Virus record (IMG/VR): IMGVR_UViG_3300020233_000063
Location: 1-20,593 of that record
Reading direction: 5' to 3' (one strand)
Source of the DNA: a virus
DNA: 20,593 nt
In this document: positions 1 through 11,843 of the stretch, in pieces
Layout: each line of letters opens with the position of its first letter
How positions within the stretch are numbered: position 1 is the first letter of the stretch
The notes under the pieces: generated by a model
What the model was told of the DNA's origin: nothing
The model's database searches: none
The model's input: only the letters and a program-made list of their open reading frames with translations
Translations under genes and position numbers: made by a program

Positions 1-2
1 AT

Positions 3-506
3 TCTAATTGTCCTGTTGTTTTGTACAGCGATCAAGGAATAATCAAAGAGGTACGTACAAAATTAGTTATTGTTGCAGCGGGGGTATGGAGTCCAAGTAT
101 TCTTGATTTACCTGTAATCATTAAACAAAAAAAGGGAGTAAGTTTTCGTTTTCGGGGAAAAATAAAATCAGCATTCATTAAACATTGGGCACCTTACAAA
201 CAGATTGTAGCTCACCAACAAGGTAGAGATATTTGGATCGGAGACGGTACAGCTATCTTAGAGGCAAATTGGACGAGAGCAAAAACCAGAGAATGTGAAG
301 ACAGATGTAAAACAGCTTTAGGATTCAAAAATCCACCAAAGAAAACTAAGGTCGGCTTACGCCCATATTGTCCAACTGGTGACGATCCTTGTTTGTGTGT
401 TGAACTGCATAAGAATATCTGGGTAGCTACCGGTTCTGGAAAACTTGGAACGATTGCTGCCGGATGGTCAGCAAATAAAATAAGGATCGAAACAGAACAT
501 GTCTAG
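3..506 (+). CDS. FAD-dependent oxidoreductase/lyase, 3' part only (thymidine hypermodification type)
   Basis: The reading frame is already open at the first bases of the window, so this is the C-terminal part (about 167 residues) of a longer gene whose start lies to the left. The TTG at 21 is therefore not the start. The fragment has the look of a DAO-type flavoprotein C-terminus: VIVAAGVWS is the strand and turn that contacts FAD, followed by a KGVSFRF strand, APYKQIV, a GDGTA loop, VGLRPY, and a terminal WVATGSGKLGTIAAGW segment, which in this fold closes over the flavin. I associate this phage subtype, placed directly before a clade 3 thymine pyrophosphorylase, with the flavin-dependent lyases that trim an amino acid attached to 5-hydroxymethyl-dU in phage DNA. 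The family call is firm; the substrate is inferred from the neighbour. The stop overlaps the next gene by 8 bases, so the two are probably cotranslated. The nucleotide-binding N-terminus cannot be seen. Confidence 0.8.
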   Translation, partial: SNCPVVLYSDQGIIKEVRTKLVIVAAGVWSPSILDLPVIIKQKKGVSFRFRGKIKSAFIKHWAPYKQIVAHQQGRDIWIGDGTAILEANWTRAKTRECEDRCKTALGFKNPPKKTKVGLRPYCPTGDDPCLCVELHKNIWVATGSGKLGTIAAGWSANKIRIETEHV

Positions 507-1296
507 TTGTGGTGAATTTGGAAAAGATTTATTAGATTCAAACGATTTAGATCCAATCTATGTAATGCTGTTTGAATCAAATTTGAAAGGGTTCAAGTTG
601 TACCGTTGGTTGCTTGCTTATTGGTGTTTCTACGACTCTGGTACGGCTTGTTGGATAGTAGACTCTCCAAAGTATTGGGAGACCATGAAAAGGGCTGCAC
701 AAACAACGTGGGTGCCCCGTGGGGTCGAACGTAGACACTTTCGGGGTGACCTAGCTACTAACTCAATCGACTACTTGACCTCGGTAGGACTAGATAGATT
801 GGTTTCTCCTTTCATTGAAAATGATAGGTTAACTTATCAACAGGTTATGAATACTGTAGTAGGTTGGGTTGGGTTTGGACCTTGGATCGGATTCAAGATC
901 GCAGATATGCTAGAGTGTTTACAAATAGTCAATATCGAATTTTCAGTTGAGAACGTATTCTTATTTAGTTCACCTTTAGAAGGGGCTAGACGACTAGCTG
1001 AAGAATTAGACGTTCCTGTGTATAACAATGTAGAGTTGAGTGAGTGGGCAGTTGAAACAATCTCAGAAGAATTGAATCGTTACTATGCTCCCCCTGGATA
1101 CAAAAGAATGGTGGGGGTCCAAGAAGTGGAAACAGTTTTATGTAAATGGAAATCACATTTGAACGAGAGATATCAAATTGGTGATGACACAAACAAACTG
1201 TACAAAAGTCTCAAAAGATTCAAAACGTCTAAGACTGCTCAACATTTGTTGTCTGCTTGTCGAAAAGGGAAGTTGCTAGATCTTTCCCAGACTTAG
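499..1296 (+). CDS. Alpha-glutamyl/putrescinyl thymine pyrophosphorylase clade 3 (amino acid:DNA transferase)
   Basis: This 265-residue protein belongs to the family of phage enzymes related to helix-hairpin-helix DNA glycosylases that act on phosphorylated 5-hydroxymethyl-dU in DNA and replace the (pyro)phosphate with an amino acid or polyamine. Visible signatures are PRGVERRHFRG (residues 73-83), FGPWIGFKIADMLE (126-139, the glycosylase-like hairpin region) and VQEVETVLCKWKSH (207-220), which I recognise from phage members of clade 3. The length fits a complete enzyme. The ATG start overlaps the flavoprotein stop, with an AAGGA about 12 bases upstream. Biochemistry on Pseudomonas phage M6 and Salmonella phage ViI relatives assigns such proteins as amino acid:DNA transferases; that this one uses glycine is a guess from the flavin lyase next door. 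Its 3' end overlaps the convergent gene on the other strand by 68 bases. The 5-hmdU DNA kinase that would make its substrate is not in the window. Confidence 0.85.
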   Translation: MSSCGEFGKDLLDSNDLDPIYVMLFESNLKGFKLYRWLLAYWCFYDSGTACWIVDSPKYWETMKRAAQTTWVPRGVERRHFRGDLATNSIDYLTSVGLDRLVSPFIENDRLTYQQVMNTVVGWVGFGPWIGFKIADMLECLQIVNIEFSVENVFLFSSPLEGARRLAEELDVPVYNNVELSEWAVETISEELNRYYAPPGYKRMVGVQEVETVLCKWKSHLNERYQIGDDTNKLYKSLKRFKTSKTAQHLLSACRKGKLLDLSQT

Positions 1297-1546
1297 ACAA
1301 ACTGTAATGGACAACATAACGATTTTTAATTTCTAATCTTTCAGCAACTATTAGATCAAGATCAATCAATGATTCAAATCCAATCTTTTTGGCAACCGAC
1401 AATCTTTTCTCTTTATCCTGACCCCCAAGATATTCTGTCAACATTGCATAATCAACTTTTGCGTTGGTCGATATCTGTTTTCTTGTTACCTGATAATGGC
1501 GAACCATAAACTGTAGGATTCGATGTTGCGGTTTTCTCAATTTCAT
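1229..1546 (-). CDS. Small winged-helix DNA-binding protein, antisense and convergent
   Basis: This is the only convincing minus-strand gene here, at 105 residues. The sequence looks like a real winged-helix protein rather than a shadow. Helix 1 is around HRILQFMVRH (8-17), the helix-turn-helix is TRKQISTNAKVDYAMLTEYL (21-40), a second segment SLIDLDLIVAERLEI (59-73) leads into the wing, and YSLSKSGKDLA (81-91) is the familiar wing plus last helix of MarR/ArsR-like small regulators. A GGA-rich stretch precedes the ATG on the minus strand. Its end runs 68 bases into the end of the transferase gene, so the two transcripts converge and could interfere with each other. It is divergent from the nucleotidase gene, with a 97-base shared upstream region that could hold the operator. 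The target is unknown; control of the modification genes is a plausible inference only. Confidence 0.6.
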   Translation of the reverse strand: MKLRKPQHRILQFMVRHYQVTRKQISTNAKVDYAMLTEYLGGQDKEKRLSVAKKIGFESLIDLDLIVAERLEIKNRYVVHYSLSKSGKDLATSLFDKQTTNVEQS

Positions 1547-1562
1547 TTGTTTTTCCAGTGGG

Positions 1563-1568
1563 TATAAT
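1563..1568 (+). promoter_or_regulatory. Possible -10 box upstream of the nucleotidase/thymidylate-synthase operon
   Basis: A perfect TATAAT lies in the divergent intergenic region between the minus-strand winged-helix gene and the nucleotidase gene. I see no good -35 hexamer at 16-18 bases, so this may be an activator-dependent or phage-specific promoter, or chance in AT-rich DNA. If used, it would leave a leader of roughly 70 bases before the ATG at 1644. Confidence 0.25.
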
Positions 1569-1643
1569 TTGAGAGGTGAGGTATTCTAACAAATACAACT
1601 TCCAACCGATACCCTAAAATTGTTCGTAAAAGGAGAGAGTGTA

Positions 1644-2231
1644 ATGATTATCTATGTGGATATGGACGAGGTGATTTGTGATTTTACCGGGGGGGTTTGT
1701 GATCTTTATGGTATCAACCGAAAAACTTTGGAAACATTTAGATCCCTAGGAACCTGGAGTATTGTTGAGGCTTTAGATAGTTTGTTTGGGAGAACAGATG
1801 ATAGATATACGAGAGAAGAAATGATATCTGTTATCAATGATCTAGGAAATGGATTTTGGCGTAATCTGAATCCTCTTCCTGATTGTGATAAGATCCTTTC
1901 TTTAATAACTGAGTTAGGGCATGACTGGTTTATTCTGACTAAACCTTTTCCTACTGTTGATTGTTTCCAAGGAAAAATAGAGTGGTACAAAAGAAACATT
2001 GATTCAGACTTTACTAGACGATTGATAATCACGGAACATAAATACTTGTTTTCAAAGCCAGGTACGGTGTTGATCGATGATTCAATCTCTAACACTTCTG
2101 CGTTTTTAGGAACCCAATCACCAGGTAAAAGTATTTTACTCCCTCACCAAGGAAATCACAGATATGAATTAGCATCAAAATCTTTTGAAATACTGAAACA
2201 AGAATTAACTGAAATCGTCAAGGAAAATTAA
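1644..2231 (+). CDS. HAD-superfamily 5'(3')-deoxyribonucleotidase
   Basis: This 195-residue enzyme probably removes phosphate from a deoxynucleoside monophosphate. The four HAD motifs are present: DMDEV at 6-10 (Asp nucleophile and acid/base Asp), the Thr of ILTKP near residue 99, a Lys in the HKYLFSK segment (132-138), and LIDDS (143-147, metal-binding acids). The pattern and length match the 5'-nucleotidase, deoxy (pyrimidine), cytosolic type C family. I chose the ATG at 1644 because AAGGAGAG stands just upstream; an in-frame TTG at 1620 precedes that ribosome site. It is followed after one base by the thymidylate-synthase-like gene. In phages that replace thymine, a dTMP-directed nucleotidase lowers the host pool, and that is the role I infer here; the substrate cannot be read from the sequence. 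Confidence 0.8.
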   Translation: MIIYVDMDEVICDFTGGVCDLYGINRKTLETFRSLGTWSIVEALDSLFGRTDDRYTREEMISVINDLGNGFWRNLNPLPDCDKILSLITELGHDWFILTKPFPTVDCFQGKIEWYKRNIDSDFTRRLIITEHKYLFSKPGTVLIDDSISNTSAFLGTQSPGKSILLPHQGNHRYELASKSFEILKQELTEIVKEN

Positions 2232-2232
2232 G

Positions 2233-3357
2233 ATGCACTTAACCTACAGAAATGTCAATCAAGCTTTCAACGGTCTAATCCAAAGGATTGCTGACGGGGA
2301 TATTCCAACAACAAAAAGTGATTCTAGGAATGGTTCTGTTATACGTGTTAATGGTCCAGTGATCGTTACGTTTGAAAAACCTAGAGAGAGAGTACTGTTT
2401 AATCCTATTCGAGACTGTAATCCTTTCTTTCACCTCTTTGAGTCTCTTTGGATGTTGGCAGGTAGTAACGATGTAAGAGCATTAAGCTACTACAATAGTA
2501 ATATCCAGAATTACAGTGACGATGGAAAAACTTTTCACGGGGCTTATGGCCATCGTTGGAGGACTGGTTTAGGGTTTGACCAGATCTCAGGAATTGTAGA
2601 TGTTTTACGTGAAAATAAAAATGATCGAAGAGCAGTATTACAAATGTGGGATAGTTCAAACCGTCATTCGATTGAAGAATTTGGTAAGTTAACAGATGAA
2701 CAACAAGAAGAAAGAAACGAATACGGGTTTAATGATCTGGAAACCGGATACCGAGGAGGAAAAGACATACCTTGTAACCTAAGTGCAGTGTTTGAAATCC
2801 TAGACAACAAATTGAACATGACTGTATTCAATAGGAGCAATGACCTAATCTGGGGGATGCTGGGAGCCAATGTATTCCATTTTTCTTTTCTCCAGGAATT
2901 TATAGCTGATATGTTGAAAGTTGATTTAGGTGTTTATCACCAGATAACTAACAATCTACATATCTACACAGAAAAAGATAAAGGGTTAGAATACTTAACA
3001 CCGACTAAAATATATTCAGATCCAAGTAGAGATCTTTATATTTCTGATAAAACAGGAATTTATTTACGCCCAATCTGTGTAAATTCAAGCTATCTAAGTT
3101 TTCTTGATGAATGTACAAGGTTTGTAAATACAGATCATTGGAGAATGCACCAAAATTGGGATTCAAAATTTTTACGTGAGGTAGCTGCTCCAATGTGTTT
3201 AGCTTATCTCGCTTACAAAAGAAAAGTATTCCCAACAGCTTTTGAGCACTTGTATAAATTACCTGATTGGTGTGATCTGAAATATGTAGGGGTAACCTGG
3301 ATGGAAAAAAGAAGATTATCCCACGAACGTAAACAAACAGGATATACTGATGAATGA
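2233..3357 (+). CDS. Thymidylate-synthase-fold enzyme, probably dUMP hydroxymethylase
   Basis: This 374-residue protein has the thymidylate synthase layout. FHGAYGHRWR (101-110) forms the folate/dUMP pocket, NDRRAVLQMWD (130-140) supplies the paired phosphate-binding arginines, DIPCN (178-182) holds the catalytic Cys181, RSNDLIWGMLGAN (201-213) supplies the phosphate Arg and, at its end, the pyrimidine-reading Asn213, and NNLHIY (240-245) holds the sugar-binding His and Tyr. The residue after the nucleophile is Asn, where classical thymidylate synthases have His. RSND-x-x-WG with one extra residue before the Asn is the phage form I associate with hydroxymethylating relatives. Retained Asn213 argues for a uracil rather than a cytosine substrate. 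It is longer than the roughly 264 residues of E. coli ThyA because of an insert (about 150-175) and a C-terminal extension. It sits in the same run as the thymine-modifying transferase, which supports dUMP hydroxymethylation. Plain thymidylate synthase remains possible. Confidence 0.85.
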   Translation: MHLTYRNVNQAFNGLIQRIADGDIPTTKSDSRNGSVIRVNGPVIVTFEKPRERVLFNPIRDCNPFFHLFESLWMLAGSNDVRALSYYNSNIQNYSDDGKTFHGAYGHRWRTGLGFDQISGIVDVLRENKNDRRAVLQMWDSSNRHSIEEFGKLTDEQQEERNEYGFNDLETGYRGGKDIPCNLSAVFEILDNKLNMTVFNRSNDLIWGMLGANVFHFSFLQEFIADMLKVDLGVYHQITNNLHIYTEKDKGLEYLTPTKIYSDPSRDLYISDKTGIYLRPICVNSSYLSFLDECTRFVNTDHWRMHQNWDSKFLREVAAPMCLAYLAYKRKVFPTAFEHLYKLPDWCDLKYVGVTWMEKRRLSHERKQTGYTDE

Positions 3358-3913
3358 ATCTTTTCCGCCAGTAACCACTAAATTGGATTTTGTTCGTAGG
3401 TACAATCTAGGTGAATTTGGGAATGCTGGACCTACTTGGGAATCTGTTTCTGTATTTTTAGATGATTTCAAATTTGAATTCCCACCTTCAAAATCTTTAT
3501 TTCATCTGAGAAACAAAATAATTGGTGGGGATACTCATTACAATCAAACATTTGAATCGATCAGGCTTAGATATTCAGAAGAATCACTAGAGACTTTTTA
3601 TGTTTCAGAAATGGCTCCGACAAAAGATACACTCATTCAAGGTGAGGTTGCTTTGTCTTCTAAAGGATTGTTGGTTACGTATAGTTCGATTGCTCTACCT
3701 ATGCGGGATGCTTTAGCAAAACAGTCTAACTATGTTCATGGTATCTTTGCAAGGTGTTTGTTAGATACCTACCTGTGTCCGAATTCACAAGATTGGTTAC
3801 GTGAATTGTTAGATCGTTATCCAGATCATGTAATTGAATTTTCAACCTATTCGAGTTACTGGGGAACTTTACCAAATTTCAATACAGTATTCTGGGAGGT
3901 TAGAATGTACTAG
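3350..3913 (+). CDS. Conserved phage protein of unknown function linked to the thymidylate-synthase-like gene
   Basis: This protein has 187 residues and overlaps the preceding stop by 8 bases, so it is translationally coupled to the thymidylate-synthase-fold enzyme. It has no signal peptide or membrane segment. The sequence looks ordered and conserved rather than random: FVRRYNLGEFGNAGPTW (14-30), LFHLRNKIIGGDTHYN (51-66), PMRDALAK (117-124), LLDRYPDHVIEF (152-163) and a C-terminal FNTVFWEVR. The aromatic-rich C-terminus and the scattered Arg, His and Asp residues would suit an enzyme, but I recognise no catalytic motif. Because it sits inside the nucleotide-modification run, a role in making or handling the modified nucleotide is possible. 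The missing hydroxymethyl-nucleotide kinase is not recognisable in it, since there is no P-loop. Confidence 0.65.
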   Translation: MNESFPPVTTKLDFVRRYNLGEFGNAGPTWESVSVFLDDFKFEFPPSKSLFHLRNKIIGGDTHYNQTFESIRLRYSEESLETFYVSEMAPTKDTLIQGEVALSSKGLLVTYSSIALPMRDALAKQSNYVHGIFARCLLDTYLCPNSQDWLRELLDRYPDHVIEFSTYSSYWGTLPNFNTVFWEVRMY

Positions 3914-3920
3914 ATACAGA

Positions 3921-3956
3921 TACCATTTTTACACGTTACCATTTTCAATGTTACCA
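3921..3956 (+). repeat. Three phased TACCA boxes ahead of the small gene at 3968
   Basis: TACCATTTT occurs at 3921-3929 and 3937-3945, and a third TACCA starts at 3952. The spacings are 16 and 15 bases, so the boxes fall on one face of about one and a half helix turns. A GATACCATTT also occurs in the short gap at 6953-6962. This is a candidate operator or activator array; no protein is assigned. Confidence 0.35.
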
Positions 3957-3967
3957 AAGAGGTAGTT

Positions 3968-4156
3968 ATGATTTATGAATTAGTTGAAGCTGATACACCA
4001 GAAGAAGCAATAGAAAATAGTTCGTATTCAATCGGACAAAATGTAGTGATTTCCAGAATCATGGTTAGTAGTGCAGGACCAAAATTGTACTCGATCATTC
4101 CAGTTATCGCTTTACTACCTAACCCTGATCTATGTCCTGTACAAAGAAAGAATTAA
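3968..4156 (+). CDS. Small hypothetical protein (62 aa)
   Basis: The gene has a good ribosome site (AAAGAGGT) before its ATG and is followed after one base by the MazG-like gene, so it reads as a member of the same operon. The N-terminus, YELVEADTPEEAIENSSYSIGQNVVISRIM, has the strand-helix-strand rhythm of small phage proteins in which an amphipathic AxxxAI helix follows a short strand. The C-terminus is hydrophobic with a proline turn and a basic end. I do not recognise a family and see no metal or catalytic motif. The three phased boxes just upstream are the only hint of regulation. Confidence 0.5.
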   Translation: MIYELVEADTPEEAIENSSYSIGQNVVISRIMVSSAGPKLYSIIPVIALLPNPDLCPVQRKN

Positions 4157-4157
4157 G

Positions 4158-4715
4158 ATGAATCATTTAGAATACCAATTTTTGGTTCAACGTACTGAAT
4201 GTAACCAAGTAGATTCATTATCGAGAATAACAGATGTTGATTTTCCATTCAGAGGGGTAAGGTTGTTACATGCTTGTATTGGGATGCAGGGTGATTTATT
4301 TGAATTACAAAGTGCTACTTCTGTTACAAATAAAAAAGAGGAATTAGGTGATATGTTTTGGTATGTTGCTGAAGCAATGAATGCAATGAATTTTCGAGGG
4401 TCGATACTTAGGACGTATCAACCAGGAGACCCGAGCTTTAGATTGATTAAAGAGATTTCTTTATTCTCTTCTCTCATTGAAAAAAGATATTATTATGGGC
4501 ACGATAAAGAATTTACTGATAAGGAAATTGTAGGTTCTTTAATCAGAATCTACCATAGTCTCGGTGATCTTTGTAATCTAAATGGTTTTTCTGTCAGTGA
4601 TGTATTAACGTGCAACATTGATAAGTTGAAAATTAGATACCCTCACAAATTCACACAAGAAGACGAATCAAATAGAGATCGACAATCTGAAGCTGATGCA
4701 ATGAATGAAGATTGA
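4158..4715 (+). CDS. MazG-like nucleotide pyrophosphohydrolase
   Basis: This 185-residue protein has the all-alpha NTP pyrophosphohydrolase signature. GDLFEL (45-50) and KKEELGDMFWYVAEAM (59-74) give the E...EExxD metal cluster. Much further on, CNIDKLKIRYPHKF followed by an ESNRDRQ tail is the N-xx-KL-xx-RYP end typical of phage MazG-family members. A roughly 70-residue segment between these parts (about 77-150) is longer than in minimal MazG proteins. Known members hydrolyse (d)NTPs to monophosphates and pyrophosphate. In this setting the likely role is to remove dTTP or dUTP so that the modified base is incorporated; that is inference. I chose the ATG at 4158, one base after the previous stop. 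A longer in-frame start at 4071 lies inside the preceding gene and is less likely. Confidence 0.75.
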   Translation: MNHLEYQFLVQRTECNQVDSLSRITDVDFPFRGVRLLHACIGMQGDLFELQSATSVTNKKEELGDMFWYVAEAMNAMNFRGSILRTYQPGDPSFRLIKEISLFSSLIEKRYYYGHDKEFTDKEIVGSLIRIYHSLGDLCNLNGFSVSDVLTCNIDKLKIRYPHKFTQEDESNRDRQSEADAMNED

Positions 4716-4779
4716 TATTACCAACGTTGAAGTGTGTAACCTTACAAAGCAACATTCTTGAAAGACTGTTAGATTATTG

Positions 4780-6954
4780 ATGAGAGTTAAGACAACTGTA
4801 AACGAGCCTGAATTTTTAAGGCCTTACTTGATTCACGGTATAGATTTAACCTACAGTGAAAGATCAAAAGATGCAACAGGAGAATGTCCATTTTGTAATC
4901 GAGAAAGAAAATTCTCTATTCAAATATCAACTGGAAAGTACCGTTGTTTTGTTTGTACCGAAACAGGAAATGCTTCTCAATTTGTAAAACTCCTTTACAG
5001 TGAGAGTTTACAAGAAACAACTGATCGTGATTATAAATCTCTTGCACGTCAAAGAGGTTACAGATCTCATTTGACGTTAAAAAAATGGGCACCTGCTAAA
5101 TCAATGATCACTGGAAATTGGTTAATCCCTGGATACAATGTTCAAGGTGAATTGAAAACTCTATATTTGTGGGGGGATAAATTATTCCCTACTCCAGGGA
5201 TCGGACATTATTTGCAAGGTTTGCAAATGATTAACGAAAATGATACCATTTTTATCACTGAAGGATTTTGGGACGGTGTAGCTTTAGATGAAGTAGTTGA
5301 AGGTTCCATAATCTCTCTTCCTGGGTGTAGTGTATTTTTTGACGATTGGTTGACCTTGTTTGCTAATCGTGATATTGCCATCTTGTTCGACAATGATCAT
5401 CCGAAAAGAGTAAAAGGGACTAAGAAAACAAAACCTTCAGCCGGATATGAAAACACAAAAACAATTTCAGCTACTCTCGGTGATTCTCCTAAATCTATCA
5501 GCTATTTGATGTGGGGTCCAGAAGGTTATGACAAGACTCTTCCACACAAGATGGATTTGCGGGATTATTTAGGGGGACTACACTTACCTAGCGGTTCTTC
5601 TCTAAGGACGTCTCACAATCGATCTAAGGCGATTTCACGTATTCTAGGACGGATTACGCCCGTACCCCAAGAATGGACGTTAGACCGGGTTAGGGGGCTT
5701 CGTAGCAATGGTACGGATATCCCAATCGTTCATTGCGATAATTGGAAAGATCTGATAGAAGTTTGGGGGTTTGCTTTAGAATGGACTGACGGACTTGAAC
5801 AAGCGTTGTGTGTTATGCTTGCCTGTTGTGTTAGCACACAAACAGTAGATGATCAATTGTGGATAAAAATCATATCCCCTCCTTCATCAGGAAAGAGTAC
5901 ATTATGTGAAGCTCTGTCTGTCTCTTCAAAATACGTTTTAGCTAGATCAGTGATTACTGGATTCCATAGTGGTTCGGGTAGTAACGATGAAGATAGATCA
6001 TTGATAGCACAAGCTGGTGGTAAAACGTTAATCACTAAAGACGCTGACACACTAATGAAATCCCCTCACTGTTCTCAGATATTTTCTGAAGCAAGAGATA
6101 TTTACGATACGGTATCACGTACTCAATATAGAACAGGCAAAGCCCACAACTATACTGGGAAACGTATGACTTGGATAATTGCAGGAACTAAAACAATTAG
6201 GGAAATTGATAGTTCAGAACTAGGTGAGAGATTTTTAGATTGTGTGATCATGGAAGATATCGACGATACTATTGAACGTAAAATAGGAAAAACAAAAGCA
6301 TCAGGAGTGATTGGAAACATACACAGAAAACCTAAAGACGGGGACATGAATTCAAATTACAGTCCTGAAATGGTCTTAGCTATGGGGACTACTGCTGGGT
6401 ATTTAGAATACTTACGTGATAACTCAGATCAACTATATACAACCTTACAAAAAAACTTACAACGTCGTCCAAGAGAAACAAAAAGACTAGAATCTAAACT
6501 GATTGATTTTGCTACGTTTGTTTCATACCTTAGAGCTAGACCTAGTATGGGACCAAAGGATAAGGGTGGGGGTGATCGAGAGATGAATCCAAGACTAACT
6601 GGGCAAATAACAAAACTGGCTCTGTCTGTTGCTCTTGTATTGAATCAATCAAAATTAACCCAAGAGGTGATGCAACGTACAAGTAAAGTAGCTTCAGATA
6701 CGGCCAAAGGGATTACGTTGGATCTAGTGAGAACTCTGTACCGATCTGATGTTGAGGTGGGATTGTCTGAAAAAGAATTAGCCAAACGATCTAACCATTC
6801 AATAAATGAGGTTGAAATGTTGATATCTTTCTTGGTTGGAATGAAAGCAGTTCAATCAAAAACTATACTACGTGGGAGGATTCAGGTTAAATACTACACT
6901 CTTTCAGATTCTCTACACAACCTCTATCAATCCGTGGAAGAATACGAAACCTGA
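4780..6954 (+). CDS. Replicative primase-helicase (zinc finger, TOPRIM, SF3/RecA-like ATPase)
   Basis: This 724-residue fused replication protein would prime and unwind at the phage fork. The N-terminal zinc finger uses C36-x2-C39 and C56-x2-C59, as in CHC2-type primases. A TOPRIM domain follows, with the catalytic Glu in ITEGFWDG (E161) and the acidic pair in ILFDND (D204, D206). From about residue 300 there is an ATPase: Walker A SPPSSGKST (366-374), a Walker B-like LITKDAD (417-423), and a later arginine-bearing SSELGERF (478-485). That order, with the ERF segment after the sensor, recalls DUF927/D5-like helicases more than the DnaB-type gp4 of T7. A C-terminal winged-helix-like stretch (about 655-700) may bind DNA. 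The ribosome site is weak (AAAGAC about 16 bases upstream). An adjoining TTG at 4777 gives one extra residue; I prefer the ATG. Confidence 0.85.
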   Translation: MRVKTTVNEPEFLRPYLIHGIDLTYSERSKDATGECPFCNRERKFSIQISTGKYRCFVCTETGNASQFVKLLYSESLQETTDRDYKSLARQRGYRSHLTLKKWAPAKSMITGNWLIPGYNVQGELKTLYLWGDKLFPTPGIGHYLQGLQMINENDTIFITEGFWDGVALDEVVEGSIISLPGCSVFFDDWLTLFANRDIAILFDNDHPKRVKGTKKTKPSAGYENTKTISATLGDSPKSISYLMWGPEGYDKTLPHKMDLRDYLGGLHLPSGSSLRTSHNRSKAISRILGRITPVPQEWTLDRVRGLRSNGTDIPIVHCDNWKDLIEVWGFALEWTDGLEQALCVMLACCVSTQTVDDQLWIKIISPPSSGKSTLCEALSVSSKYVLARSVITGFHSGSGSNDEDRSLIAQAGGKTLITKDADTLMKSPHCSQIFSEARDIYDTVSRTQYRTGKAHNYTGKRMTWIIAGTKTIREIDSSELGERFLDCVIMEDIDDTIERKIGKTKASGVIGNIHRKPKDGDMNSNYSPEMVLAMGTTAGYLEYLRDNSDQLYTTLQKNLQRRPRETKRLESKLIDFATFVSYLRARPSMGPKDKGGGDREMNPRLTGQITKLALSVALVLNQSKLTQEVMQRTSKVASDTAKGITLDLVRTLYRSDVEVGLSEKELAKRSNHSINEVEMLISFLVGMKAVQSKTILRGRIQVKYYTLSDSLHNLYQSVEEYET

Positions 6955-7680: not shown

Positions 7681-8496
7681 ATGAAACACGTTCCAAAACC
7701 TCTAACTGATGAGAATGGATTATTCTCTGGTACTGTTGCGTCTAAGAAAACTTGCGAGTCTCTCTGTGAGTATTTAGGTGGCGTAACTCTTCTAGCCTTT
7801 TCTGGAGGTAAAGATTCTTTAGCCTGTTGGCTATATCTTCTTGATTGTGGGTTTGACACAATAAGACCTTTTCATTGTTCTGCAATCCCAGGTATTCAAT
7901 ATGTTGATAAAGGGTTGACGTATTATGAACAATGGTTTGAAACCTCAATACACAGATATCTGCAAGGGGAAAATCAATACAATCTTGCTAATCGAATCTA
8001 TCAACCCTTTCAAGATCTTGAATTACTGGACGCTCTTGATTTTTGGGACTACACGATTGACAATGTTGCTGACCTACATGGTGAAGCATTGGGGATGGCT
8101 GAGGATACTGTGTGGTTGGCTAAGGGAATTTGTATGTTTGACAATGTCAATCGTATTACTCAAATGAATCGCTGTCTCGGTCAAGAAGACGACAAACAAA
8201 TCTTTTACCCAATCTGGGACTGGAAACCCACACAAGTAACTGAATACATATCTAGGTTTGATATCTCATTGAGTTTGGATTACCTGTTGGACAAGACAAG
8301 TTTAGAAGGGTTGCCTCTGGTAGGCACACTCTTGAAAATGAAAGAACTTTTCCCCCAGGATTATGAACGGGTAAAATTATTCTTTCCTCTGATTGAAGCT
8401 AAGTTAGCTCGTCATCAATTTAGACTCCTTCATGCTGCTAAAAGATCTGGGGATCCTATGTTGAACAAAAAGAAATTAGGGAGACCTGGAGGATGA
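7681..8496 (+). CDS. PAPS-reductase-like PP-loop (adenine nucleotide alpha hydrolase) protein
   Basis: This 271-residue protein has the PP-loop SGGKDS at 41-46 inside a strand-loop-helix, as in PAPS reductase, ATP sulfurylase and thiouridine synthases. The LYLLDCGFDTIRPFHC segment that follows is the usual second strand, and TYYEQWFETSIHRYL a following helix. Further on, YPIWDWKPTQVTEYISRFDIS is the conserved acid and aromatic region that closes the active site in phage PAPS-reductase-family proteins. The enzyme would bind a nucleotide and cleave its alpha-beta phosphate bond; whether it reduces PAPS, loads sulfur on a tRNA or DNA base, or adenylates something else is unknown. The paired cysteines of thioredoxin-dependent APS reductases are not evident. 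It is the first gene after the terminator, has AGGA before the ATG, and overlaps the next start by 4 bases. Confidence 0.8.
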   Translation: MKHVPKPLTDENGLFSGTVASKKTCESLCEYLGGVTLLAFSGGKDSLACWLYLLDCGFDTIRPFHCSAIPGIQYVDKGLTYYEQWFETSIHRYLQGENQYNLANRIYQPFQDLELLDALDFWDYTIDNVADLHGEALGMAEDTVWLAKGICMFDNVNRITQMNRCLGQEDDKQIFYPIWDWKPTQVTEYISRFDISLSLDYLLDKTSLEGLPLVGTLLKMKELFPQDYERVKLFFPLIEAKLARHQFRLLHAAKRSGDPMLNKKKLGRPGG

Positions 8497-10320: not shown

Positions 10321-10968
10321 ATGAGCGATTGGATAACAGATAGAAAAGCGACAAAGGATGATGGCGATTACAACAATCAAGTCTGGGTTACCCGAAGCAA
10401 GGAAATCTTTTCTGTTCATTGGACTCAAACTCGATCTGATCCTTGGATGCCAAAAGAAGAAAAACCAACAATCTACGTTCCACCAGAACTACGAAGACTG
10501 TGGGTAAAGTTTTTAGGTGATACAAATAAAGTGTCTGAGGTTCTCCATGAAAACCCAAACAATCCTGAATACTGTGAGATGCAGGAAATACCTAACATAG
10601 AAATTGATCCAACACTACAGAGAGAACATCCACATTTACAATCAGTACAAGGTACAGAATACCACATTCTCCCCCAACCCTCTCAAACTCTAACTGTCAT
10701 TGTAGGTAAGGGGACTGACACCTATCAACATGCTTTACGTGAAGCAACAATCATTGCTGAAAGAGGTGCTGATTATCACCTTCATCGAGACGGTGGTCAT
10801 CCTCTAGGTAATGCACCTGGAACAACATACTCAGGGACAGGATATTCTTGGGATTTCAATCGTCCCAATCACTGTTGGTATGGTGAACTTCCTGAATCAC
10901 AACTTGTGGCTAGAGCTAGAGTACGTGGTGTCAATGATGCCTGGTTTTGGTCAGCCCATTACAAATAG
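10321..10968 (+). CDS. Hypothetical protein with a host-like C-terminal domain (215 aa)
   Basis: The ATG lacks a visible Shine-Dalgarno; the upstream stretch is A- and C-rich (CAAACAAAACAATT), so it may be translated from a near-leaderless or S1-dependent site. Residues 1-115 are polar, rich in Pro and Glu, with no signal peptide. Residues 120-215 look like a folded domain: an ALREATIIAERG helix, a His-rich HLHRDGGHP stretch, YSGTGYSW, an NHCW turn and a last strand ARARVRGVNDAWFWSAHY. An Ala-rich helix leading to a His segment, then a Y-S-G-x-G-x-S motif and a final RGxxGWY-like strand, is a pattern I associate with short planctomycete proteins of unknown role. The methyltransferase gene starts 9 bases after its stop. 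Confidence 0.55.
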   Translation: MSDWITDRKATKDDGDYNNQVWVTRSKEIFSVHWTQTRSDPWMPKEEKPTIYVPPELRRLWVKFLGDTNKVSEVLHENPNNPEYCEMQEIPNIEIDPTLQREHPHLQSVQGTEYHILPQPSQTLTVIVGKGTDTYQHALREATIIAERGADYHLHRDGGHPLGNAPGTTYSGTGYSWDFNRPNHCWYGELPESQLVARARVRGVNDAWFWSAHYK

Positions 10969-10976
10969 GAAAAACG

Positions 10977-11843
10977 ATGAGATACTTACTACTAGCCTTC
11001 TGGTTACTTTTAACTCCTTCTGTAGTAGACGCTCAATGGCTTCGACGTAACGGAAGAGGGTACACCAAAAACAGTAACGGTCGATATTGCAACAACCTTA
11101 ACTGTGCAATGTGTAACCGTTTATTTGGTTCAATGTATTCACAGCCTCCACAAAGGAGAATACCTAATGTACGATTTCCTCAGTCAAATCCTAACAGATC
11201 TTTTCATGTTGTCCCTAATATGTCTAGTCCTGTACTTAATCATCGAGTTCCCTTACCACAACTAGCCCAACCTCAAAAGGTTTACTCAAATGACATCACT
11301 AATCCTGAAGATCGTACTAGACGCTCTGTCATGGGCAACCATATTCGGTCTAATTTGGTGGTTGATAATTCAGTACCCGTACAACAAATAATCCCAGACA
11401 ACGTTTTGAATCAATTAGATCCTTCCCCTCAGAAGGCTGTTGATACGATGTTAAGAATACTGAATCCTACTTCTAAGGATTATCTGTATGATCTAGGATG
11501 TGGTGACGGTAGGATACTAATCACTGCTGCATCTAAGTACGGCTGTCGTGGAATAGGAATTGAGATTAACCCAATCACTGCTGATAAAGCTAGAGCAAGA
11601 GTTAAAGCTGAAAGCCCTAAGAAGGTATTTGTGATTACTGGGGACATTAAGTATCAGGATCTTTCAAGAGCTACAATGGTAACAATGTTCCTGTACCCAC
11701 AAGTGATGGCTGAGGTGATACCTAAACTGAAAAAGTTGAAAGTAGGTACAAAGATTCTGTCTTACAACCATAGGATTCCTGAGGTTGATCAAACCAAGTA
11801 TAATGAAGATGGAAACACTTACTACCTGTGGGAAATCAAATGA
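10977..11843 (+). CDS. Exported protein with Cys motif and C-terminal SAM-dependent methyltransferase domain
   Basis: I chose the ATG at 10977, which has AGGA 6 bases upstream and gives a proper signal peptide (MRYLLLAFWLLLTPSVVDA, cut near residue 19). A longer in-frame start at 10947 would bury the signal and lies inside the previous gene. Residues 20-60 hold RYCNNLNCAMCNRLFG (C38, C43, C46), a possible metal or cross-link site. A long Pro/Asn linker follows. From about 150 there is a Rossmann-type methyltransferase: DLGCGDGRI (172-180, SAM-binding motif I), an acidic end in GIGIEINP (E196), a TGD loop (221-223), and a C-terminal YNHRIPEV and TYYLWEIK. The methylated substrate is unknown. 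An enzyme that needs SAM yet carries an export signal is odd. I recall similar two-part proteins in Planctomycetes, so capture from a host is likely. Confidence 0.7.
   Translation: MRYLLLAFWLLLTPSVVDAQWLRRNGRGYTKNSNGRYCNNLNCAMCNRLFGSMYSQPPQRRIPNVRFPQSNPNRSFHVVPNMSSPVLNHRVPLPQLAQPQKVYSNDITNPEDRTRRSVMGNHIRSNLVVDNSVPVQQIIPDNVLNQLDPSPQKAVDTMLRILNPTSKDYLYDLGCGDGRILITAASKYGCRGIGIEINPITADKARARVKAESPKKVFVITGDIKYQDLSRATMVTMFLYPQVMAEVIPKLKKLKVGTKILSYNHRIPEVDQTKYNEDGNTYYLWEIK

Follow-up and report, generated by a model that had tools for sequence, protein, structure and literature searches.

Which DNA base, if any, do the enzyme genes at the left end of the virus record IMGVR_UViG_3300020233_000063 serve to make? 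The stretch analysed, called the window below, comprises positions 1 to 20,593 of that record (20,593 bases). Its left 4.7 kb carry the end of a flavoprotein gene, a gene for an amino acid:DNA transferase of the ADDT family, and genes related to nucleotide supply. We consider it likely that the cluster encodes a phage pathway for thymidine hypermodification, of the flavin-lyase branch, with 5-aminomethyl-2'-deoxyuridine (5-aminomethyl-dU), formed via glycyl-thymidine, as its predicted product. Gene content, gene order, homology, and family-specific residues carry this reading. It would add a new and divergent system to the flavin-branch thymidine hypermodifications already known, which act against restriction; hypermodified thymines shield phage DNA from host nucleases.

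The transferase (499-1293) matches Pfam ADDT (PF18724) at 3.9e-18, scoring 66.5 bits where the cut-off is 26.2, and over its full length it matches the Protein Data Bank (PDB) entries 25qc (1.9e-39) and 8z2m, 'Glycinyltransferase' (4.8e-39). According to its PDB title, 8z2m is the 5-phosphomethyl-2'-deoxyuridine glycinyltransferase gp46/PUGT of phage PaMx11. When the window transferase is aligned with M6 gp51 and PaMx11 gp46, 49 columns are invariant. A preliminary description of the window had assigned it to clade 3, but its nearest annotated relatives belong to aGPT-Pplase clade 2. The flavin adenine dinucleotide (FAD) protein matches Pfam DAO (1.2e-8 for the C-terminal part at 3-503 of the window, 2.2e-18 for the full protein) and the PDB entries 8z2o and 8z79, 'Flavin-dependent lyase' (2.2e-38 for 8z2o, residues 3-276 of 283). 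The motifs GxGxxG, WAPY, GDG, GxRP, and GxxKxGT are common to it and 20 phage homologues, and weak NCBIfam matches to ThiO and to the MnmC FAD domain, far under the cut-off, agree with the fold. Because the two proteins lie near a solved glycinyltransferase and a solved flavin lyase, they support an aminomethyl-type product. Such a base had been proposed in the preliminary description; the proposal holds for the two enzymes, and the chemical product itself is predicted from them.

With the PaMx11 enzymes the two proteins share only 33-36% identity, about 33% for the FAD protein against PaMx11 gp47, and tailoring enzymes were exchanged within the transferase's clade. The transferase might accordingly use some other amino acid instead of glycine, and the FAD enzyme might perform a different change, such as oxidative deamination. 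However, the nearest solved relatives are a glycinyltransferase and a flavin lyase, and on the tree the transferases of flavin loci are interspersed with those of radical S-adenosylmethionine (SAM) loci, in keeping with a shared first amino acid. We regard a different amino acid as improbable.

If the pathway is correct, a kinase for 5-hydroxymethyl-2'-deoxyuridine (5-hmdU) in DNA should lie to the left of the window, a forecast set beforehand as a risky test. A 58,324-bp IMG/VR contig (L002) matches the window and is identical over the 13.4 kb compared, so that genes beyond the left edge of the window could be read there. Directly to the left it carries the start of the FAD gene, a P-loop kinase gene, and an HMUDK_hel gene, with a family A DNA polymerase before these, as the forecast had it. 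The P-loop kinase has 188 amino acids, the Walker motif GTSGAGKST, and a weak PF18748 match (4.2e-5); HMUDK_hel has 296 amino acids and matches PF18723 at 1.3e-45. The HMUDK_hel, P-loop kinase, FAD, and ADDT genes are contiguous, with junctions of 0 to 8 bases. A split kinase was rejected as a peculiarity of this phage, since the P-loop and helical genes are separate open reading frames (ORFs) in most loci. In nearly all of 80 related loci, HMUDK_hel, the kinase, and the thymidylate synthase (TS) homologue occur together with the transferase.

Radical SAM or pyridoxal phosphate enzymes had also been expected to the left. In the 58-kb contig, to which all statements of absence apply, we found no radical SAM gene (Pfam, our own hidden Markov model, and a protein query), no PALP homologue (our own profile), and no acetyltransferase of the GNAT family (PF00583). 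The flavin step is thus the only tailoring step found.

The genes of the left 4.7 kb and the primase-helicase gene that follows are given below, with corrected starts for the MazG-like gene (ATG at 4158), the NT5C gene (ATG at 1644), and the FAD gene (345 bases before the first base of the window).

1..506, plus strand: predicted FAD-dependent lyase (DAO fold), C-terminal 167 amino acids; the full gene (283 amino acids) lies at L002:9157-10008
499..1296, plus strand: ADDT, aGPT-Pplase clade 2-like, probable 5-phosphomethyl-dU (5-PmdU) glycinyltransferase
1229..1546, minus strand: small winged-helix-like protein, convergent
1644..2231, plus strand: 5'-deoxyribonucleotidase, NT5C type, probably clearing thymidine monophosphate (dTMP); for 1644-2228, PF06941 1.8e-12 and PHROG 5'-3' deoxyribonucleotidase 2.3e-11
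2233..3357, plus strand: thymidylate-synthase family, probable 5-hydroxymethylase of 2'-deoxyuridine monophosphate (dUMP); for 2233-3354, Pfam Thymidylat_synt (PF00303) 4.5e-19, and residue pattern
3350..3913, plus strand: conserved 187-amino-acid protein, weak ATP-grasp-like fold
4158..4715, plus strand: MazG-like nucleotide pyrophosphohydrolase, possibly clearing deoxyuridine or thymidine triphosphate (dUTP/dTTP)
4777..6954, plus strand: primase-helicase-like replication protein, end of the syntenic block (Zn_ribbon_DnaG 5.6e-6; same place in related contigs)

The FAD and ADDT frames overlap by 8 bases, as do the TS-family and 187-amino-acid frames, and the NT5C and TS-family frames are 1 base apart. 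Profile searches of the proteins at 3-506, 499-1296, and 2233-3357 returned DAO, ADDT, and Thymidylat_synt, with the transferase inside ADDT. The families named in the preliminary description (DAO, ADDT, NT5C, and Thymidylat_synt) are thus present at their positions, and on Pfam all but MazG lie far beyond chance. The MazG assignment stands on the PHROG MazG-like family (1.6e-15), while its Pfam MazG match (6e-4) falls just under the cut-off. The enzymes are as listed in that description, from which two genes were missing, those at 1229-1546 on the minus strand and 3350-3913 on the plus strand.

The TS-family protein was aligned with its counterparts from PaMx11, M6, the SPO1-like Goe19, the ViI-like SH19, and phiW-14, with a T4-type td protein, and with a protein annotated as dCMP hydroxymethylase. 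It keeps the catalytic Cys and an Asn at the uracil-reading position, which we take to be Asn177 of E. coli TS in numbering and role; it has Cys-Asn in place of Cys-His, and the Trp80-type residue is lost. This pattern occurs in all aligned proteins of 5-hmdU phages and in no true TS, and full-length matches in phage records come only from M6/PaMx11-type and related phages. Both observations suggest that the protein is probably a dUMP hydroxymethylase rather than a thymidylate synthase. Among the viral contigs, the TS query matched only the window's own contig.

The locus might instead make only 5-hmdU, or serve ordinary thymidylate metabolism, with its tailoring genes decayed or unused; the MazG-like assignment is weak, and the TS family takes its name from thymidylate synthesis. 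Yet the reading frames are all intact, lie tightly together, and are conserved, with relatives 31-51% identical, and the TS-family protein has neither the TS-type His after the Cys nor the Trp80-type residue. This explanation appears very improbable to us.

Placed in order, the predicted activities outline a pathway to 5-aminomethyl-dU in which the glycine donor and the final base are likewise predictions. With the genes just beyond the left edge included, all core enzymes are represented and the gene set is nearly complete. The dUMP hydroxymethylase (2233-3357) would convert dUMP to 5-hmdUMP. Pools of dTMP/dTTP or dUTP are probably reduced by the NT5C and MazG-like enzymes, which would let the phage polymerase incorporate 5-hmdU. 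After replication, the P-loop kinase, perhaps with the help of HMUDK_hel, would phosphorylate 5-hmdU in DNA to 5-phosphomethyl-dU. With the ADDT (499-1296), the amino group of glycine would displace the phosphate to give N-alpha-glycyl-thymidine, from which the FAD enzyme would remove the carboxymethyl part to leave 5-aminomethyl-dU. The last step would be the same bond change as that of MnmC on 5-carboxymethylaminomethyluridine (cmnm5U) in tRNA, in which the carboxymethyl moiety of cmnm is cleaved to leave aminomethyl (PMC9626948). The purpose may be escape from host nucleases, with part of the thymine replaced by an amine-bearing base.

Several points weigh against this pathway. No 5-hmdUMP kinase was identified, the window transferase belongs to a clade whose other members mostly work with radical SAM and PALP, and the specificity of the FAD protein could differ at its distance from PaMx11 gp47. 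In addition, no terminal repeats were seen in the 58-kb contig; it may be incomplete, and so another tailoring gene may be missing. The same pathway could end in another base, either because glycyl-thymidine is kept or because an enzyme that lies outside the 58 kb or was not recognised adds an acyl or alkyl group to 5-aminomethyl-dU. An acetyltransferase stands next to the lyase in PaMx11 and several flavin loci, and L191, the nearest flavin relative, has a GNAT gene and a protein related to an amidoligase-like one of contig L005. However, the 58-kb contig yielded no GNAT gene, and there is no unexplained gene between the kinase and the transferase of the window's phage. We rate another final base as rather unlikely and retain 5-aminomethyl-dU as the predicted product.

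How the transferase came to be paired with a flavin lyase was examined in 80 transferase loci from viral contigs; related loci were gathered with patterns from the window's own transferase or 187-amino-acid protein. Flanks are short in many loci, and branch counts use loci flanked by 4 kb or more on each side. An FAD protein without radical SAM occurs in 13 loci and radical SAM without an FAD protein in 17 (16 of them with PALP), while one locus has both and four have neither (Fisher p = 2e-5). Since the loci are related, a test on the tree is fairer: in phylogenetically independent pairs, FAD and radical SAM never change in the same way and change in opposite ways in about seven (median p ~0.016). 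Placing the FAD label on the transferase tree takes 16 changes, and supported branches force 11 or more of these. In the ten-member clade of the window transferase (support 98/97), seven members have radical SAM, one has both, and one has neither. The window's FAD protein groups (98) with that of L191, which belongs to the same phage lineage. The simplest interpretation is an exchange in which the radical SAM/PALP pair was lost and the flavin lyase gained, with both acting on one shared amino-acid-DNA intermediate. Two alternative chemistries, seemingly on one intermediate, have replaced each other many times.

Two of the compared loci have features of their own. L003:8602-12545 is the sole locus with both a radical SAM and an FAD protein; it also has an aldo/keto reductase and no PALP, and possibly makes a further base. 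L003 was rejected as the source of the window's FAD gene, as its FAD protein is 22% identical and falls elsewhere. At L016:7378-9231, an intein of about 315 amino acids lies inside the radical SAM CxxxCxxC motif, between the second and third Cys. In the radical SAM gene of L016, a TGA codon falls in frame at a conserved Trp position; a reading of TGA as Trp was rejected because the same locus ends genes with TGA.

Does the rest of the lineage keep the same tailoring genes? About 33 contigs sharing the frame were obtained with the 187-amino-acid protein as query, and the region from HMUDK_hel to TS was read in 15 of them; each search used one query, and the contigs may be incomplete. Every region read has both HMUDK_hel and the TS homologue, and the genes between them vary. 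The slot of L187 holds a kinase, a divergent ADDT (2.2e-7), a carbamoyltransferase, and an asparagine-synthetase-like gene, and that of L005 adds amidoligase-, glutathione-synthetase- (ATP-grasp), and JmjC-like genes to the radical SAM branch. Other slots have no kinase: L186, L192, L195, and L200, for example, carry a TET-associated-type glycosyltransferase (PF20691) with radical SAM/SPASM, L196 and L198 carry Mom (PF25680; 4e-20 and 1e-17), and L188 carries an FkbM methyltransferase. The slot also takes sugar-, carbamoyl-, and Mom-type enzymes, and the number of DNA modifications predicted for this group is unusually high.

The role of HMUDK_hel may be wider than that of a kinase part. Its predicted structure has a predicted local distance difference test (pLDDT) score of 94, and the best Foldseek match is an 8-oxoguanine DNA glycosylase (E 0.02, probability 1.00, TM ~0.5 on the target), with the glycinyltransferase 8z2m lower in the list (E 1.9). 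In a profile comparison with ADDT, the G-x-G and E-x-x-x-L-C-x-(W/F) motifs align weakly, in the same order. HMUDK_hel is present in the cassettes of L186, L188, L192, L194-L198, and L200, where a P-loop kinase was not found. No kinase homologue was found either in the HMUDK_hel-bearing 65-80 kb contigs G161, G175, G181, and G183, by one-query searches of possibly incomplete contigs. The glycosylase-like model and the retention in kinase-less cassettes suggest that HMUDK_hel serves to read 5-hmU in DNA or to flip it. Tentatively, we propose that in this lineage a constant 5-hmdU frame, made up of TS, HMUDK_hel, and the replication block, is combined with a tailoring cassette that can be exchanged. 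In this scheme HMUDK_hel might be a general module for 5-hmU-DNA reading or base flipping, a DNA-glycosylase-like relative of ADDT and not part of the kinase. If this is true, several cassettes would make thymine-derived bases not yet described. The survey provides a short list of loci in which to look for new DNA bases and points to a direct test of the HMUDK_hel role.

Two small neighbours accompany the enzymes. The 187-amino-acid protein has no Pfam match and no match in phage records; its AlphaFold2 model (pLDDT 94) weakly resembles ATP-grasp chains in Foldseek (E 2e-4, TM ~0.4-0.5). It has 80 relatives in viral contigs, of which the nearest, about 32, all lie beside TS. The distant ones occur in contigs without TS nearby, which weakens its candidacy as a member of the hmdU pathway. 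The winged-helix-like ORF also has no Pfam match. Its homologues lie on the minus strand in the same place, between the transferase and the nucleotidase or TS, in L003-L006, L008, and L016, and the protein is a probable regulator or DNA-binding protein. At the same position, related genes encode proteins with a Lys/Ala-rich N-terminal tail.

Farther right, the window carries terminase small subunit, portal, and Mu F-like genes, as expected of an ordinary tailed phage. A PAPS-reductase-like PP-loop protein with an FSGGKDS motif lies at 7681-8496 (PHROG 9.8e-11), and an exported SAM-dependent methyltransferase-like protein at 10947-11843. A scan of the whole collection with the latter gave no match. 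Similar exported proteins are found in Planctomycetota, but a planctomycete host was not accepted on this basis, as the matches (8e-25 in Planctomycetota, 5e-19 in Pseudomonadota, and 2e-13 in Chloroflexota) give a lean only. About 9.4 kb left of the window, at L002:116-667, the phage encodes a member of the uracil-DNA-glycosylase superfamily (1.2e-24), a noteworthy companion to a 5-hmdU pathway.

Among known systems, PaMx11 resembles the window's phage in its adjacent gp46 and gp47, the latter annotated as an FAD dependent oxidoreductase, in a TS homologue a few genes away, and in homology over the full length. Besides the low identity, the gene order is reversed, with FAD before ADDT in the window's phage, which also has the kinase and HMUDK_hel genes before the pair and the NT5C, MazG-like, and winged-helix genes between or after. 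The acetyltransferase next to the PaMx11 lyase has no counterpart found in the window's phage. We do not take it as defining for a PaMx11-type system, since none is annotated in Rhizobium phage RHph_TM26 either. That phage has the FAD lyase before the transferase, the kinase, and TS in one operon, but its FAD protein is 31% identical and the flanking genes differ. Pseudomonas phage M6, which makes 5-(2-aminoethyl)-dU (5-NedU) and whose sequence (DQ163916) is identical to our L044, a locus of radical SAM type, shares the front half of the pathway (TS homologue, HMUDK_hel, kinase, and ADDT). The preliminary description had credited M6 with a flavin lyase; M6 in fact has radical SAM and PALP without an FAD lyase, the reverse of the window's phage, and the flavin branch belongs to PaMx11-type phages. 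The window extends the flavin branch to a divergent system from a phage group for which we found no cultured members. Within that group, L003-L009, L016, and 20-odd more contigs share PolA, HMUDK_hel, a cassette, and the winged-helix, NT5C, TS, 187-amino-acid, MazG-like, and primase genes, with transferases 42-50% identical to the window's. Their cassettes are mostly of the radical SAM and PALP type or do not involve amino acids, whereas L191 alone shares the flavin branch, with an FAD protein of 47-49% identity.

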